Of a stretch of DNA of 64,000 nucleotides, positions 2,618 through 60,204 are shown in pieces (within the stretch, counting starts at the first letter, position 1; every line of letters begins with the position of its first letter). Source of the stretch: Chitinophagales bacterium. Its GTDB lineage: Bacteria; Bacteroidota; Bacteroidia; Chitinophagales; Saprospiraceae. The translations under genes were made by a program, and so were the position numbers. The notes beneath the pieces were generated by a model. The model was not told the DNA's origin, did no database searches, and saw nothing but the letters and a program-made list of their open reading frames with translations. Location: the NCBI GenBank assembly GCA_013298955.1, contig JAAFJT010000003.1, forward strand, positions 62,001-126,000, written 5' to 3'.

Positions 2618-3943
2618 ATGCGTTCTTTATTCACTATTTTTTCAATATATTGTACCACTTTGAGTTTCGCGCTCACACCTTTTGAAGCGATTCGCAACAG
2701 TCGAGTGGCGGTCAATATCAATCCGATTCGATTTTATACGGATTCGTCCTTTACGAAACCGAGTGAAATGAATTTTCCAGAAGGCGAATTGTTTGAAATT
2801 ATAAGTGAATCGCGCCGTTTGCACGACGATAATAGTCAAAATCAACAGTTTAAATGGTATCGGCTACAAGCCTTGAATGGCAAAAAAGGTTGGGTTTTTG
2901 GCGATAATGTGGCGATTATCCTGCCCGAAACGCAGATTGCAGCTCCATTTAAACCGTATCATCAACAAACAACGCATTTTGATAATGGTTTTGAAAAAGG
3001 TATTATGTGGGCGGCGAGTGTGGAAGGTTTTGACAATTTGTATAAAAATAGACCGCTTTTGAACCCGCCTTACAAGGAATTTTATTGGATGGTGACGAGT
3101 GAACGCGGCAAATCGGTCTCCATTCACTGCGGCGGCATCAATGATCAGGGCAAAAAAGAAACATTGAGCGTTCAATTTTGTAATTTGAATGACAGTCCTT
3201 CTGACGAATTAGTGCTTGAATTGAATAGCCAACAAACGGGTAGTTCGCTTGAACAACGAGACCTTGAAATTTATGCCTTTCAAGGTGGGAGTTTGCAAAA
3301 AATTTTTGAGGAACGATTGACGCTTTTTTTTGACCAAACAGGGGGCAATGAGCCGGCTCCAAGTGCTTACAAATGTGTTGAAATGGAAAGTAGTCCTCAA
3401 AATATGATTCGGATTGCTTATGTAGATTATGTTGATTGTAAGAAATTTACGTTGAAAATGAACGTTGATGTGCAAATCGAAGAAGGCGCGTATCGGGAAC
3501 GCTGTATGGAATATGTGACGAGTAGTTACGTCTGGGATACGAAGATTCAAGCATTTAAAACTTTTTACAAAGAAACGCGAACAGCATTGAATGCCTCCAT
3601 TCGATTGCCGAATAGTGTTTTAAAAATCGCTCCAAGTGAGGAGAGTAAAACGATTCGCAATCTGCCCAATAACGATAAGTTATTGATAATCAAGCATTGT
3701 GAAGACATTGCTTTATTAAACGGAGAAAAGATATGGAATCATTTTTTATATGTAAAACACGCCTCTGGGGATTATGGATATGTTCGAGCGCGAGATATTG
3801 GATTTAAAAATTTGGAACAAGGCGATTTATTGCAACAATATTATCGCACACCACCGCCCTCTAAATCAGAATGGAAACCGACAAATGTACATTTTGTAAA
3901 AGTAAAAAAAATAGAGCGTACTTTTAAAAATGCAGCGAATTAA
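2618..3943 (+). CDS. Secreted protein with two SH3-like segments
   Basis: A 441-residue exported protein of unknown role. I place the start at ATG 2618 because the residues from there (MRSLFTIFSIYCTTLSFA) form a good signal peptide; the open frame also extends upstream to a TTG at 2594. After the signal peptide a bacterial SH3-like segment runs to about residue 100, ending KGWVFGDNVAII, the typical Gly-Trp-Val end of SH3b repeats. A second similar segment is near the C-terminus, ending GDYGYVRARDIGF. The middle has no motif I recognise. SH3b domains often bind cell-wall or other polymers, so a periplasmic or surface role is inferred only. Confidence 0.7.
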   Translation: MRSLFTIFSIYCTTLSFALTPFEAIRNSRVAVNINPIRFYTDSSFTKPSEMNFPEGELFEIISESRRLHDDNSQNQQFKWYRLQALNGKKGWVFGDNVAIILPETQIAAPFKPYHQQTTHFDNGFEKGIMWAASVEGFDNLYKNRPLLNPPYKEFYWMVTSERGKSVSIHCGGINDQGKKETLSVQFCNLNDSPSDELVLELNSQQTGSSLEQRDLEIYAFQGGSLQKIFEERLTLFFDQTGGNEPAPSAYKCVEMESSPQNMIRIAYVDYVDCKKFTLKMNVDVQIEEGAYRERCMEYVTSSYVWDTKIQAFKTFYKETRTALNASIRLPNSVLKIAPSEESKTIRNLPNNDKLLIIKHCEDIALLNGEKIWNHFLYVKHASGDYGYVRARDIGFKNLEQGDLLQQYYRTPPPSKSEWKPTNVHFVKVKKIERTFKNAAN

Positions 3944-26007: not shown

Positions 26008-27372
26008 ATGATTTTTAATACCAACATGAAATCCACTTTTTCCTTAGAAAAATTATTATATGCGTTATTTGCTGCATACCTAATTGCCATTCCTTCCAAT
26101 GCGTTTTTAAATTTGCCTCATTTAGGAGACAAATTGCAATTGCCTGAAATTTTATTTTTGTTTATCAGCATCGTTTTTGGGGCGTATTTTGGCTTTTCCA
26201 AAACCATTCATGAACTCAAAAATTGGCATTTCACCGCTATTGATAAAGGCATCCTTGCTTTTTGCGCGGCAGTGTGTTGTTCGTGTTTGGTGCATTGCAC
26301 GCGTGCATCCATCCTTGAAATGATTGGTTTAGGCTATTTGATGACCTTTTACCTAATGATGAGGCTGTTTTTTCAAAATACACCTTATAATATCCTTGAT
26401 TTTACGACGCGCTTTTTTGTTATTTCGGGGTTTATCACGGCGGTTATTGGATTAGGGGGTTGGTTTATGGCAACTTTTATGCATATTGAAACGCTTACGG
26501 CGCGACTTTACATCAATTATCCTTATTTGGGAGACGTGTATAGAGTGTTTGCTTTTACGAGTCATCCTGTGATGTTAGCGAGTTTTATGGGCGTTTGTCT
26601 CCTTGTTTTGGGCATTAAAAGTCGGATGAATCCTAAAAATCTTTCCCATTTTGAATGGATTGCGTTTAGCTGCATGAGTATGGTAGAAATATTGACGTTT
26701 ACCAAATCCATTGTTGCGTTAAGCGCGTGTTTTTTGTGGTTAATTGATTCATTTTTTTATAAAAATCATCGATGGATTCCCAAAATTATAACCGTTAGTG
26801 TGGCGATGATTTTAATTTTTTTTGTGTTTATGACGCATTTTATTGTCATGGATACAACAAAATACGATGCTTTGCCCTTAGAAAAAAGGCATTTTTATCA
26901 TCGTTCCGAAGCAATACCTTATGTCAAAATAGGCAATATTTATCTCATTCGCACGACTTATACGCTTTTAAAACAAAATGCTTTTAAAGCCTTTTTACAA
27001 CATCCTATCACAGGACTTGGTGGTGGTAATTTTGAATCTTTTTGTGGTGAGCAAAAAGCTAAAGGCTTGTATCCCAATTATTTAGAAACATTTGACCCAC
27101 ATTCCAGTTATATGGGTGCGTTATCCGAATTGGGATTATTGGGTTTTACGGCATTGATGTATTTGGTGTTTGGCATTTTTACGACCTTTCGACAAGTTAA
27201 GAAAAATAGTTTGCTATCTGAACAATGGTTTATACTTGGTTTGGGCAGTGTTTTAATTTTTATGGCGAGCGAAGCAATGGTTACAGATATTATGAATTTT
27301 AGGCATTATTGGGTCTTTTTTGCTGTTTTATCAATCATGGATACAAAATGCAAGTTTACTAAGCCGCTTTAG
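26008..27372 (+). CDS. O-antigen ligase / polymerase family membrane protein (WaaL/Wzy-like)
   Basis: A 454-residue polytopic inner-membrane protein with about ten to twelve hydrophobic segments. The large periplasmic loop before the last segments contains HPITGLGGGNF and then DPHSSYMGALSELGLLGF, the H(P)xxGxGxGxF ... PHxxYL..hxExGhhG pattern of the Wzy_C/WaaL superfamily. Such proteins join O-antigen to lipid A-core or polymerise O units. Whether this one is ligase or polymerase cannot be decided. lpxB, next but separated by a family A hairpin, agrees with an LPS role. The start could be ATG 26008 or the in-frame ATG six codons later. Confidence 0.8.
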   Translation: MIFNTNMKSTFSLEKLLYALFAAYLIAIPSNAFLNLPHLGDKLQLPEILFLFISIVFGAYFGFSKTIHELKNWHFTAIDKGILAFCAAVCCSCLVHCTRASILEMIGLGYLMTFYLMMRLFFQNTPYNILDFTTRFFVISGFITAVIGLGGWFMATFMHIETLTARLYINYPYLGDVYRVFAFTSHPVMLASFMGVCLLVLGIKSRMNPKNLSHFEWIAFSCMSMVEILTFTKSIVALSACFLWLIDSFFYKNHRWIPKIITVSVAMILIFFVFMTHFIVMDTTKYDALPLEKRHFYHRSEAIPYVKIGNIYLIRTTYTLLKQNAFKAFLQHPITGLGGGNFESFCGEQKAKGLYPNYLETFDPHSSYMGALSELGLLGFTALMYLVFGIFTTFRQVKKNSLLSEQWFILGLGSVLIFMASEAMVTDIMNFRHYWVFFAVLSIMDTKCKFTKPL

Positions 27373-27539
27373 CTTTGAAAAGCCCATACAATTGGAACGC
27401 GGATGACACGGATTGGGCGGATTTGCACGGATTTTTTTTCGATTAAATTAAAATAAAATTTTGTATAAAATAAAAAATCTGTGCAAATCCGCCCAATCCG
27501 CGTTATCTGTGTTCCAATAGTATCGGCATTTTTCAAAGC
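27372..27539. repeat. Family A hairpin (copy 3) nested in an outer inverted repeat
   Basis: The inner family A arms run ATACAATTGGAACGCGGATG ... CGCGTTATCTGTGTTCCAAT. Outside them GCTTTGAAAA (27372-27381) pairs with TTTTCAAAGC (27530-27539). Arm variant GATTTGCACGG is matched by CCGTGCAAATC. The loop is A/T rich. Confidence 0.88.
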
Positions 27540-44903: not shown

Positions 44904-45728
44904 ATGGCAAAAAAGAAAGTGCTGTTAATAGCGCAGGAAATCGATCCATACACAGCGTTATCGGAAATCGCCGAAACCGCTAATAAACTTCCGTTGTATC
45001 TCAATGAGCATGGCTGTGAGATTCGCATCTTAATGCCGCGCTTCGGAACGGTGAATGAGCGTCGTCATAGATTGCACGAAGTGGTGCGCCTGTCGGGGAT
45101 GAATATTATTGTGAATGATGACGATTATCCGTTGATTATCAAGGTGGCTTCTTTGCCGGGTTCACGGATTCAAGTCTATTTTTTGGACAATGACGAGTTT
45201 TTTAGACGCAAATCAGTTTTTGAAGACTCCGAAGGACAACCTTTTGATGACAACCTTGATAGAGCCGTCTTTTTCTGCAAAGGTGCCATTGAAACGGTGA
45301 AAAAATTTGGTTGGTCACCAGATATTGTGCATTGTCATGGGTGGATGACGGGTTTAATTCCGTTGTATTTGCGCACCGCGTATAAAAATGACCCCCTTTT
45401 CCAGCCATCAAAGATTATTTATTCGTTATATGATACGTTGAATCAAGTGTTTCCTGTGCAAGAATTTACAGAAAAGGCTTCTATCAACAATTTGACGGCG
45501 GAAGATATGATTGCTTTTTTACATGAAGGGGAAGTTTCGATTCATAAAGGGGCGGCTGTTTTTTCAGATGGACTTATCAAAGGCAGCGAATTGATTTCAG
45601 AATCCGTTTTAAAGACGATTGAAAATACGGGCAAACCTGTTTTAGAATATTTCAACCATGCTGAAATGGGTAAATCTTATATCGATTTTTATAATGCGAT
45701 TGAAACAGAAAGTTTAGTGGGTCATTAG
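44904..45728 (+). CDS. Half-length GT5 glycogen/starch-synthase-like protein
   Basis: 274 residues that match only the N-terminal GT-B half of glycogen synthase: MAKKKVLLIAQEIDPYTALS (like the start VLFVaaEv.P), LPRFGTVNERRHR-type loop (LMPRFG), and WSPDIVHCHGWMTGLIPLYL, the WxPDhvHxHDW site. The C-terminal ADP-glucose-binding half with its EExxxR motif is missing, so normal synthase activity is doubtful. Short proteins of this kind lie next to panC, DUF4270 and glmS in many Bacteroidota, which argues that this is a conserved protein and not a recent break. It may have become a regulatory or binding protein. The long leader upstream is unusual. Confidence 0.8.
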   Translation: MAKKKVLLIAQEIDPYTALSEIAETANKLPLYLNEHGCEIRILMPRFGTVNERRHRLHEVVRLSGMNIIVNDDDYPLIIKVASLPGSRIQVYFLDNDEFFRRKSVFEDSEGQPFDDNLDRAVFFCKGAIETVKKFGWSPDIVHCHGWMTGLIPLYLRTAYKNDPLFQPSKIIYSLYDTLNQVFPVQEFTEKASINNLTAEDMIAFLHEGEVSIHKGAAVFSDGLIKGSELISESVLKTIENTGKPVLEYFNHAEMGKSYIDFYNAIETESLVGH

Positions 45729-45747
45729 GGCATGAAACCGTAAATAA

Positions 45748-45978
45748 TTAGGGAAAAAGACCTTCCAAATGAAACAGAAAGGTTAAAAAAAACATTTTTT
45801 TAACCTTTCTGTTTCATCTAAGTAGTCGTAACGAAATAAGCTATCATAATGTAAATAGTTGATAATCAATATATTAACGTCGGCGAGGTTGCAACCTCGC
45901 CGACGTTGGCGATGTTCTTTTTGATAGCTTATTACAGCGCGACTACTTATTCCATTCTGGCGGCGGAAATTTTCTCTA
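45748..45978. repeat. Family F element (copy 1) containing a family G element
   Basis: The left end is TTAGGGAAAAAGACCTTCCA (45748-45767) and the right end is CATTCTGGCGGCGGAAATTT to TCTCTA (45953-45978). Between them lie a 49-base palindrome with arms ATGAAACAGAAAGGTTAAAA (45769-45817) and the whole G element 45819-45949. The ends match those at 47683-47783 and, inverted, at 60911-61032. The element fills most of the gap between the GT5-like and DUF4270 genes. Confidence 0.8.
45819..45949. repeat. Family G nested inverted repeat (copy 1)
   Basis: Outer ends TAAGTAGTCG / CGACTACTTA, then AATAAGCTATCA / TGATAGCTTATT, then TTGATAATCAA, then an inner perfect palindrome with arm AACGTCGGCGAGGTTG (45876-45907). 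Three shells of symmetry share one centre. Confidence 0.85.
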
Positions 45979-46225
45979 CTTATACGAGTATCGTTAAAAA
46001 CATGCACTTGCGTCATGTCTTAACTGGATACAAGTTCTTTTTTGTGGTGTCTCAATCGAACAAATGAATTATATTAAAAAATAAAATCAATGAAATGACA
46101 TTTATCCAAAACAATGTCATTTACATCTATTTTTTAATATTTTATGAATTGATTATCAAACCGTTGAAACCTAACTTGGGAAGGTTTCTAACCCGAAAAG
46201 TTATTTATTTCTTCACAAATTTGTA

Positions 46226-47563
46226 ATGAAAAACAACCTTATTACTGCGGTCGTTGTGGGCTTGCTGACGACGCTCGGCACTTACTCCTGCATCAAATCT
46301 ACGCCTGTTGGCTCAGAACTTTTTGACAACGATAAATTAAATGTGCAGTTTACAGACACCGTAACGATTCGCTGCCTCACGGAGAAAACGGATTCTATTG
46401 CAGCGTATATCCCGAATGCTGCCTCTTCGACGCTTTTTTGTGGCAACACCATCGACCCGACTTTTGGCAAACAGGAATTGATGATGTTTACGCAGGTTGT
46501 AAATGCGGTTACGCCTGGGAGCATGGTTGGCGCATTATATGATTCGGCAGTATTAGTTTTGCCATATGACCTTAGTTTGATGCGGATTGACTCCTCTGAA
46601 ACCATTCAATTAGATGTGCATCAATTGACACAAAAAATGGATTCAGCGCAAGTTATATATTCTAATAAAAAATATACCTATAATGCTGTTCCGATTGGTA
46701 CGCAATCGTTTCGCCCCCGTTTGTCTGATTCGTTGACCAATCGGGCAGACACTTTGAAATCGGCTTATGTAGCGATTCGATTGAATGACCAATTTGCGCG
46801 ACAATTAGTGGATACAACTCAGTATCCATTGTCACCAACTAACCTTTTTAAAGATATTTTCAAAGGGTTATGTATTAAAGCAAATGGCACTACGAAATCG
46901 GTTTTAGCTTTTAATACGGCTTCACCTTATGCGCGATTGCATGTTTATTATCGTCGTGATACCAGTAAATTGCGCTTGGATTTTATGTTAAATGAGGCTT
47001 CTTCCCCTTCTGGTACCAAAATTACGCGTTATACGTATATCAATCAAGATTATACCAATGCACCGATTGCGCCTTTTGTTAAAAATCAGCAAAAAAGTGA
47101 TAGTTTAGTGTTTTTACAAGGTTTAGCGGGTTCAAATGTGCAGATTGAAATCCCATATGCGCGTAATTTAGGTAAGATTGCAGTCAATAAAGCAGAATTG
47201 GAATTTACCATTAATGATAAAGATGGGTATAAATATCCTGCATTAGAGCAATTAGCTTTATATCAAATCAAAGCTGGTGCAGCGTTGGATTTCATTACGG
47301 ATTTCAATACCGCCAGTACAAATACAACGATACAAGGTTATTTTCCTTATTTTGGCGGTACACCACAAGTGCTTAGTGGCTCTTATGTTTATAGGATGAA
47401 CGTCACCGATTATTTGCAACAAATTATTGCGGGTAAGCAAGGTTCGATTATGACTATGACGGCTTATAACAAAACGGCTCGGCTGAATCGAGCTATTTTG
47501 TATGGCGCGGGCATCGCCGGAGCGCGGCGAGCAAAATTGCGCTTGACTTACACCGTTTTATAA
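46226..47563 (+). CDS. DUF4270 family lipoprotein
   Basis: 445 residues. A lipoprotein signal peptide ends at Cys22 (LTTLGTYSC). The mature part starts with TPVGSELFDNDKLNVQFTDT, the DUF4270 opening, and has long beta-rich stretches; a conserved site ALYDSAVLVLPYD is near residue 105. DUF4270 proteins are Bacteroidota outer-membrane lipoproteins of unknown function, often placed between the GT5-like gene and glmS as here. The ATG follows a gap filled with nested palindromes. A decayed GAAACCT / AGGTTTC hairpin lies about 40 bases upstream. Confidence 0.82.
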   Translation: MKNNLITAVVVGLLTTLGTYSCIKSTPVGSELFDNDKLNVQFTDTVTIRCLTEKTDSIAAYIPNAASSTLFCGNTIDPTFGKQELMMFTQVVNAVTPGSMVGALYDSAVLVLPYDLSLMRIDSSETIQLDVHQLTQKMDSAQVIYSNKKYTYNAVPIGTQSFRPRLSDSLTNRADTLKSAYVAIRLNDQFARQLVDTTQYPLSPTNLFKDIFKGLCIKANGTTKSVLAFNTASPYARLHVYYRRDTSKLRLDFMLNEASSPSGTKITRYTYINQDYTNAPIAPFVKNQQKSDSLVFLQGLAGSNVQIEIPYARNLGKIAVNKAELEFTINDKDGYKYPALEQLALYQIKAGAALDFITDFNTASTNTTIQGYFPYFGGTPQVLSGSYVYRMNVTDYLQQIIAGKQGSIMTMTAYNKTARLNRAILYGAGIAGARRAKLRLTYTVL

Positions 47564-47680
47564 GTAGTTGAAATCAATTAAAAGCGAATGAACGTGCGTC
47601 AAGTTTCAAACTTGACGCACGTTCATTCGCTGATTTTCAATGATTTACATTTTGATAGTTTATTTTAGTTGAACTACTTA
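47561..47680. repeat. Family G nested inverted repeat (copy 2)
   Basis: Outer ends TAAGTAGTT / AACTACTTA (the left end overlaps the stop codon of the DUF4270 gene), right flank TTTTGATAGTTTATTTTAG as in copy 1, and an inner 47-base palindrome with arm GCGAATGAACGTGCGTCAAG (47584-47630). The inner palindrome has no likeness to that of copy 1. Confidence 0.83.
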
Positions 47681-54145: not shown

Positions 54146-54312
54146 ATACTTTGCGTCGGGTGGTTTTGGATACTATTGGAACGCGGATTGGGCGGATTTG
54201 CACGGATTTTTTTTGAAATTCAGTGCCAATTCAGGAAAAAATCCGTGAAAATTCGCCCAATCCGCGTTATCCGTGTTCCCATTGGATCGCAAAAACACCC
54301 GACGCAAAGTAT
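54146..54312. repeat. Family A hairpin (copy 8) inside an outer inverted repeat
   Basis: Outer arms ATACTTTGCGTCGGGTG (54146-54162) and CACCCGACGCAAAGTAT (54296-54312) pair perfectly. Between them is a family A element (ATTGGAACGCGGATTGGG ... CGTGTTCCCATTGG). TAGGGAAAG, as in family F ends, follows at 54315. Confidence 0.9.
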
Positions 54313-60024: not shown

Positions 60025-60076
60025 TCAAGATTTATGGGATTTTTAAGATTCAATTAAGTCGTTAAATTTAAAGAAT

Positions 60077-60204
60077 CGACCACAACGTTTGGAGGGTTCG
60101 ACCACAACGTTTGGAGGGTTCGACCACAACGTTTGGAGGGTTTGACCACAACGTTTGGAGGGTTCGACCACAACGTTTGGAGGGTTTGAAACCCTCCAAA
60201 CGTT
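60077..60204. repeat. Array of five 22-bp family B left arms closed by one right arm
   Basis: The unit CGACCACAACGTTTGGAGGG plus TT occurs five times head to tail (60077-60186; the fourth unit has T as first base) and is followed by TGAAACCCTCCAAACGTT. Only the last arm completes the palindrome (60172-60204). There are no spacers. Confidence 0.95.

Follow-up and report, generated by a model that had tools for sequence, protein, structure and literature searches.

The locus and the layout of the element

The genome under study is a 4.68-Mb Saprospiraceae draft in 204 contigs (98% complete), and the window, i.e., the whole stretch of 64,000 nucleotides that was analysed, is C128:62001-126000. 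The closest relatives, compared via the protein of the neighbouring glycogen-synthase-like gene, are Saprospiraceae metagenome assemblies, the best of them at 70% identity. The element at 45819-45949 is flanked by this gene (44904-45728, PF08323) on its left and by a DUF4270 gene (46226-47563) on its right. No ORF of at least 80 aa was found across it, and a search of 45000-47000 against Rfam gave no match. The separate hairpin on its left (Table 1) is probably a terminator. It may be noted that the first TAA of the second T element in the window doubles as the stop codon of the DUF4270 gene. In the nearest relative (L093, gap after position 3661), the glycogen-synthase-like gene is followed by another hairpin, TTTGACGCAAGTT..AACTTGCGTCAAA, that resembles the P palindromes of the GTCAAG class described below.

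Table 1. Repeat features of the window (positions are those of the window)
Feature	Position	Strand	Remarks
A element, 46-nt arms	27372..27539	.	S-type shell GCTTTGAAAA
Perfect hairpin, 23-bp arms	45769..45817	.	Separate from T; adjoins left edge of T; 3' of glycogen-synthase-like gene
T element, subfamily T1, 131 bp, non-autonomous (MITE-like)	45819..45949	+	Flanking TA included; dispersed copies; TA duplication in family
Left terminal inverted repeat	45819..45849	+	About 31 nt, imperfect; holds shells 1 and 2 of the original prediction
Small palindrome, TTGATAATCAA region	45859..45870	.	Conserved in T1/T2/T4 (alignments)
Core palindrome AACGTCGGCGAGGTTGCAACCTCGCCGACGTT	45876..45907	.	P module, GGCGAGG class; perfect, 32 bp
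Right terminal inverted repeat	45919..45949	-	Same basis as left repeat
T element, subfamily T4	47561..47680	+	Second in window; GTCAAG-class core
A element with D shell ATACTTTGCGTCGGGTG	54146..54312	.	One of about 20 D+A ends in sample

The original prediction had described the element as three concentric inverted repeats, themselves nested in a further (F) element. All the strings that it named were found, far above chance, including the 32-bp palindrome (a perfect one is expected about 1e-5 times per 64 kb) and the outer shells of the two A elements (GCTTTGAAAA/TTTTCAAAGC at 27372-27381/27530-27539; ATACTTTGCGTCGGGTG and its complement at 54146-54162/54296-54312). The concentric arrangement itself did not hold. 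Shell 1 (TAAGTAGTCG/CGACTACTTA) and shell 2 (AATAAGCTATCA, 45835-45846/TGATAGCTTATT, 45922-45933) have one centre, with a coordinate sum of 91768, and form one ungapped inverted repeat (38 nt, 76%), while the core palindrome, with a coordinate sum of 91783, sits 7.5 bp off that centre. When the sister copy C173:7708-7849 was examined, the repeat was found to be unbroken across the segment that divides the two "shells" here (TAAGTAGTCGTAACGAAATAAGCTATC..GATAGCTTATTTCGTTACGACTACTTA). The element consists of two layers, one imperfect terminal inverted repeat and a separate core module. As for the F element, no flanking inverted repeat was found around 45819-45949, just one chance 9-mer. The strand folds with -34.3 kcal/mol (DNA), compared to -12.9 in shuffles (z -7.6).

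Dispersed copies and subfamilies

Near-full-length copies with unrelated flanks occur elsewhere in the genome at 96, 93, 92, and 89% identity. T ends start with AGTAGTYG, and a genome-wide search with the left-end pattern gave 102 + 94 matches against 10 + 15 for the control, i.e., about 170 T left ends over the control. The sample statistics given below are based on 864 kb (40 stretches of 20 kb each, and the window), in which clean full-length T copies are typically 130 bp long.

Subfamilies with common ends were recognised. T2 has the left half of T1, a GGTCGGCGAGG core and a different right half; T3 and T4 have T ends around a GTTTGGAGGG and a GTGCGTCAAG core, respectively. T2, T3 and T4 carry other P classes at the position of the T1 core. 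One T element (L053:6401-6699) has grown to 299 bp via tandem repeats of a core half, in GTCGGCGAGGTTGCAAC units.

Insertion as a unit at TA

The flanks of T copies were joined with a single TA and searched for in the 864-kb sample. Paralogous empty sites were obtained in this way for two T copies, both of them other members of the family than the copy at 45819-45949. In the first, GTTTA[TA..TA]CAAAATTTTAT corresponds to TTTTATACAAAATTTTAT in the A loops at window 27453-27494 and in L032; the loop of the A element 27372-27539 is, in other words, the empty counterpart of a T insertion in L065. In the second, which lies in another palindromic repeat, AATTAAGGAA[TA..TA]GTAGGAATTT corresponds to AATTAAGGAATAGTAGGAATTT in L044. 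Filled and empty sites differ by exactly the whole element and one duplicated TA, and therefore T inserts as a unit.

It had been proposed to compare orthologous gaps for states with only some of the shells. Relatives retain the order of the glycogen-synthase-like and DUF4270 genes at 76 loci, with gaps of about 0 to 400 bp, and a T end or core was present in none of the 76 gaps. Owing to the evolutionary distance, the comparison demonstrates absence of the element but not intermediate states.

The hairpin core as a module

The sample contains 106 P palindromes, which fall into classes by their stems (58 GGAGGG, 29 GGCGAGG, 12 GTCAAG, and 7 GGCAAG). Both T ends accompany 35 of these, and neither T end accompanies 32. 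In alignments, the small palindrome, as TTGATTATCAA, adjoins many of the stand-alone core palindromes. Conversely, L173 holds a T palindrome that lacks the P core. The right half of T2 differs from that of T1, so that T2 is not a core-less T with an insertion. In other repeats, the S shell GCAATTTCCGCTTTGGAAA surrounds both A and B interiors.

In G001, a genome of the same genus, the GGCGAGG palindrome occurs without T ends, in one instance (about 1510-1542 of L048) in frame within a C-terminal tail for type IX secretion, a Por_Secre_tail sorting domain. The modularity implied by the original prediction is thus borne out, the core being found alone, within other element ends, and alone in the same-genus genome. 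Taken genome-wide, these partial states are better explained by module exchange than by a fixed order of insertion at one locus. The P core would then be a passenger module, swappable between elements by recombination or by movement of its own.

At several places a tandem-amplified half hairpin (a P half or an A arm) stands beside an intact hairpin (window 60056-60190; L083:15077-15618; L070:11623-12028; L063:1-400). This arrangement suggests replication slippage at palindromes.

A elements, composites and loops

Among the 78 paired A elements in the 864 kb, loops range from 2 to 254 bp. T elements or other palindromes are present in the majority of the longest ones. No A arm among the 78 was seen split by an insertion. 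When TA dinucleotides were counted, A arms had 79 in 6281 bp and empty loops 201 in 1962 bp. Since the arms hold few TAs and the loops many, an element that targets TA mostly misses the arms.

The D shell (ACTTTGCGTCGGGTGG) is paired with the A arm in essentially all of its about 20 occurrences in the sample, and no empty shell, i.e., a D-only palindrome, was found among these ends; hence the D+A composite behaves as one unit. We also asked whether A had entered a D palindrome at its central GGATATCC, and set this aside: the flanks fit, but an empty D was not found. At L063:11109-11414, a D+A composite lies at a TA within a T3 element (..CAAGATA[ TACTTTGCG..CGCAAAGTA ]TAGTATAACG, against CAAGATAGTATAACG in the T3 form), from which it follows that composites, once formed, move as units. 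The insert is located between the small palindrome and the core, not at the loop tip.

A palindromic element within the loop of another was observed repeatedly (L057, L065, L082, L075, L091), and one T copy (L071:3770-3891) occupies the 3-nt loop of a hairpin with 24-nt arms. We compared 24 clean T sites with 3000 random intergenic TAs. Of the 24 sites, 3 were located in the loop of a hairpin with a score of 18 or more, against 7.5% of the random TAs (p = 0.27); a looser cut-off gave 6 of 24 against 10%, a mild enrichment (p = 0.03). Insertion into loops is not clearly enriched. Of the proposal that loops are preferred targets, the recurrence of loop insertions stands, but a strong preference is unsupported with TA as the target; a modest one is possible.

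Distribution and search for a transposase

Across 150 genomes of the family, the exact T pattern was limited to the own genome and G002, which belongs to another genus, and the GGAGGG palindrome to the own genome (216 copies); for the A arm, the own genome and G136 were the main carriers. G002 has about 55 elements, usually of 128 bp, that share the TAAGTAGTTG ends; the interior is unrelated and often includes short tandem repeats. It is clear from these results that the unit is mobile, that TA is duplicated, and that common termini enclose different interiors, within the own genome as well as in G002.

In the own genome, Y1_Tnp (PF01797) gave 0 matches with the controls positive, and DDE_3 (PF13358) and DDE_Tnp_1 (PF01609) gave none; a draft assembly of 204 contigs and 98% completeness may have lost collapsed IS copies. 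Near-identical ORF pairs were absent from the 864-kb sample. The IS630s of G001, G002, and G136 have ends that differ from T ends, and a cognate DDE_3 transposase with T-matching ends was found neither among them nor in the own genome. It may be noted that G136 (L222-L230) has about 50 A elements and 15 IS630-type matches, the main IS630 copies ending in TAGTGGTGAATAAATT, unlike the A ends.

In G002, 40 stretches surrounding T-type ends yielded a single candidate for an autonomous partner (L195:1476-2713, in G002:C134). This 1238-bp unit encodes an IS982-like transposase with a weak DDE_Tnp_1_3 match. It was rejected because the transposase has inverted ends of its own (GCGAATCCAGGGCTAAA) inside a MITE with T ends.

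Discussion

The element at 45819-45949 is very probably one copy of a MITE-like non-autonomous element that moves whole into TA sites with a stable P hairpin inside. Its imperfect terminal inverted repeats of about 31 nt, with their AGTAGTYG start, would be recognised in trans by a DDE-type transposase, a view we base on the terminal repeats and the TA duplication. The whole unit would enter mostly intergenic TAs, with duplication of the TA. Nested palindromes would arise when such insertions fall on TAs in older palindromic repeats, of which the AT-rich loops hold TAs and the GC-rich arms mostly do not; the composites would then spread as units.

According to the original prediction, palindromes repeatedly enter the centres of earlier ones, with single-stranded loops as preferred targets. 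Filled A loops, the L071 copy at a hairpin tip, stand-alone cores together with one core-less T palindrome, and the enrichment in loops when the cut-off is looser (p = 0.03) are in its favour, and its general idea is retained to the extent that palindromes do lie in the loops of others and partial states occur genome-wide. For this element, however, the unit moves whole and the two shells are one repeat, and the prediction had named both evolution as a unit and shells that form one hairpin as speaking against it. Moreover, D-only palindromes are absent among about 20 D ends, the D+A insert in the T3 element is away from the loop tip, the T2 right half does not fit a core-less T with an insert, and TA positions account for most of the loop bias. 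Serial nesting is thus unlikely. Selection of the hairpins as transcription terminators or RNA elements, mobility being historical only, would agree with their intergenic location, the strong folding (z -7.6), and the stem-preserving variation among P classes; we consider it quite improbable in view of copies at many unrelated places, the absence of the element from all 76 orthologous gaps, and the lack of an Rfam match at 45000-47000.

The high copy number of these short intergenic palindromes, and the string GTAG at T ends, also recall REP/REPIN-type repeats moved by RAYT, a Y1 tyrosine transposase. This explanation is largely refuted and very hard to sustain. No small REP hairpin follows GTAG, Y1_Tnp has no match in the own genome, and the T family duplicates TA and has true inverted repeats at its termini, neither of which Y1 elements are known to make.

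Returning to the MITE-like reading, T is a new MITE family with a modular hairpin core. What defines a MITE was found, save a parent IS: 131 bp without coding capacity, terminal inverted repeats, dispersed near-identical copies, and TA duplication (in two family members). The TA duplication is compatible with a derivative of IS630/Tc1-mariner, but is not specific to that group. Prokaryotic MITEs such as RUP, NEMIS, ERIC, and Nezha are 70-300 bp long, non-coding and intergenic, with terminal inverted repeats of 15-30 bp (PMC3733652, PMC10969869). T is likewise short, non-coding and intergenic, with inverted-repeat ends and a short target duplication; it differs by a near-central perfect hairpin of exchangeable class, and no parent IS was found. 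A limited search of the literature did not find the T family.

BrickBuilt of Porphyromonas gingivalis is a MITE with a 23-bp minisatellite (PMC4596501). In layout it resembles T, both being MITEs of Bacteroidota whose inverted-repeat ends enclose a repetitive interior, and the G002 relatives of T have short tandem repeats inside; the interior of T is a hairpin core instead of a minisatellite. In the organelle DNA of Volvox carteri, some palindromic repeats sit inserted within others, and the larger composites so formed occur at several sites (PMC2670323). That case concerns organelle genomes, whereas the T family comprises transposon-like units, as judged by TA duplication and terminal repeats. 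IS elements that target REP palindromes were described by Tobes and Pareja (PMC1525189); these and T both land in palindromic repeats, but REP is the specific target there, and TA apparently is here. Rickettsia palindromic elements (named in PMC3733652 and PMC10969869) are in-frame palindromes in protein genes, as is the G001 core in the Por_Secre_tail region, a single case of 33 bp that is likened to them by position. It is conceivable, though rather doubtful, that P hairpins (AAC-stem-GTTTNAAAC-stem-GTT, in several stem classes) are mobile modules that enter the middle of various MITE families and, in frame, even genes, cassettes and transposon ends being shuffled independently.

An apparent nested palindrome has thus become a defined element family with ends, a target and a unit size, and the nested look of palindromes follows a simple rule, namely that TA sites are in loops and not in arms. 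The Saprospiraceae genome harbours an ecosystem of small repeats in hundreds of copies, without matches to three common transposase families. That the hairpin module recurs between ends of different elements, and by itself in a sister species, makes the question of how such hairpins spread a testable one.
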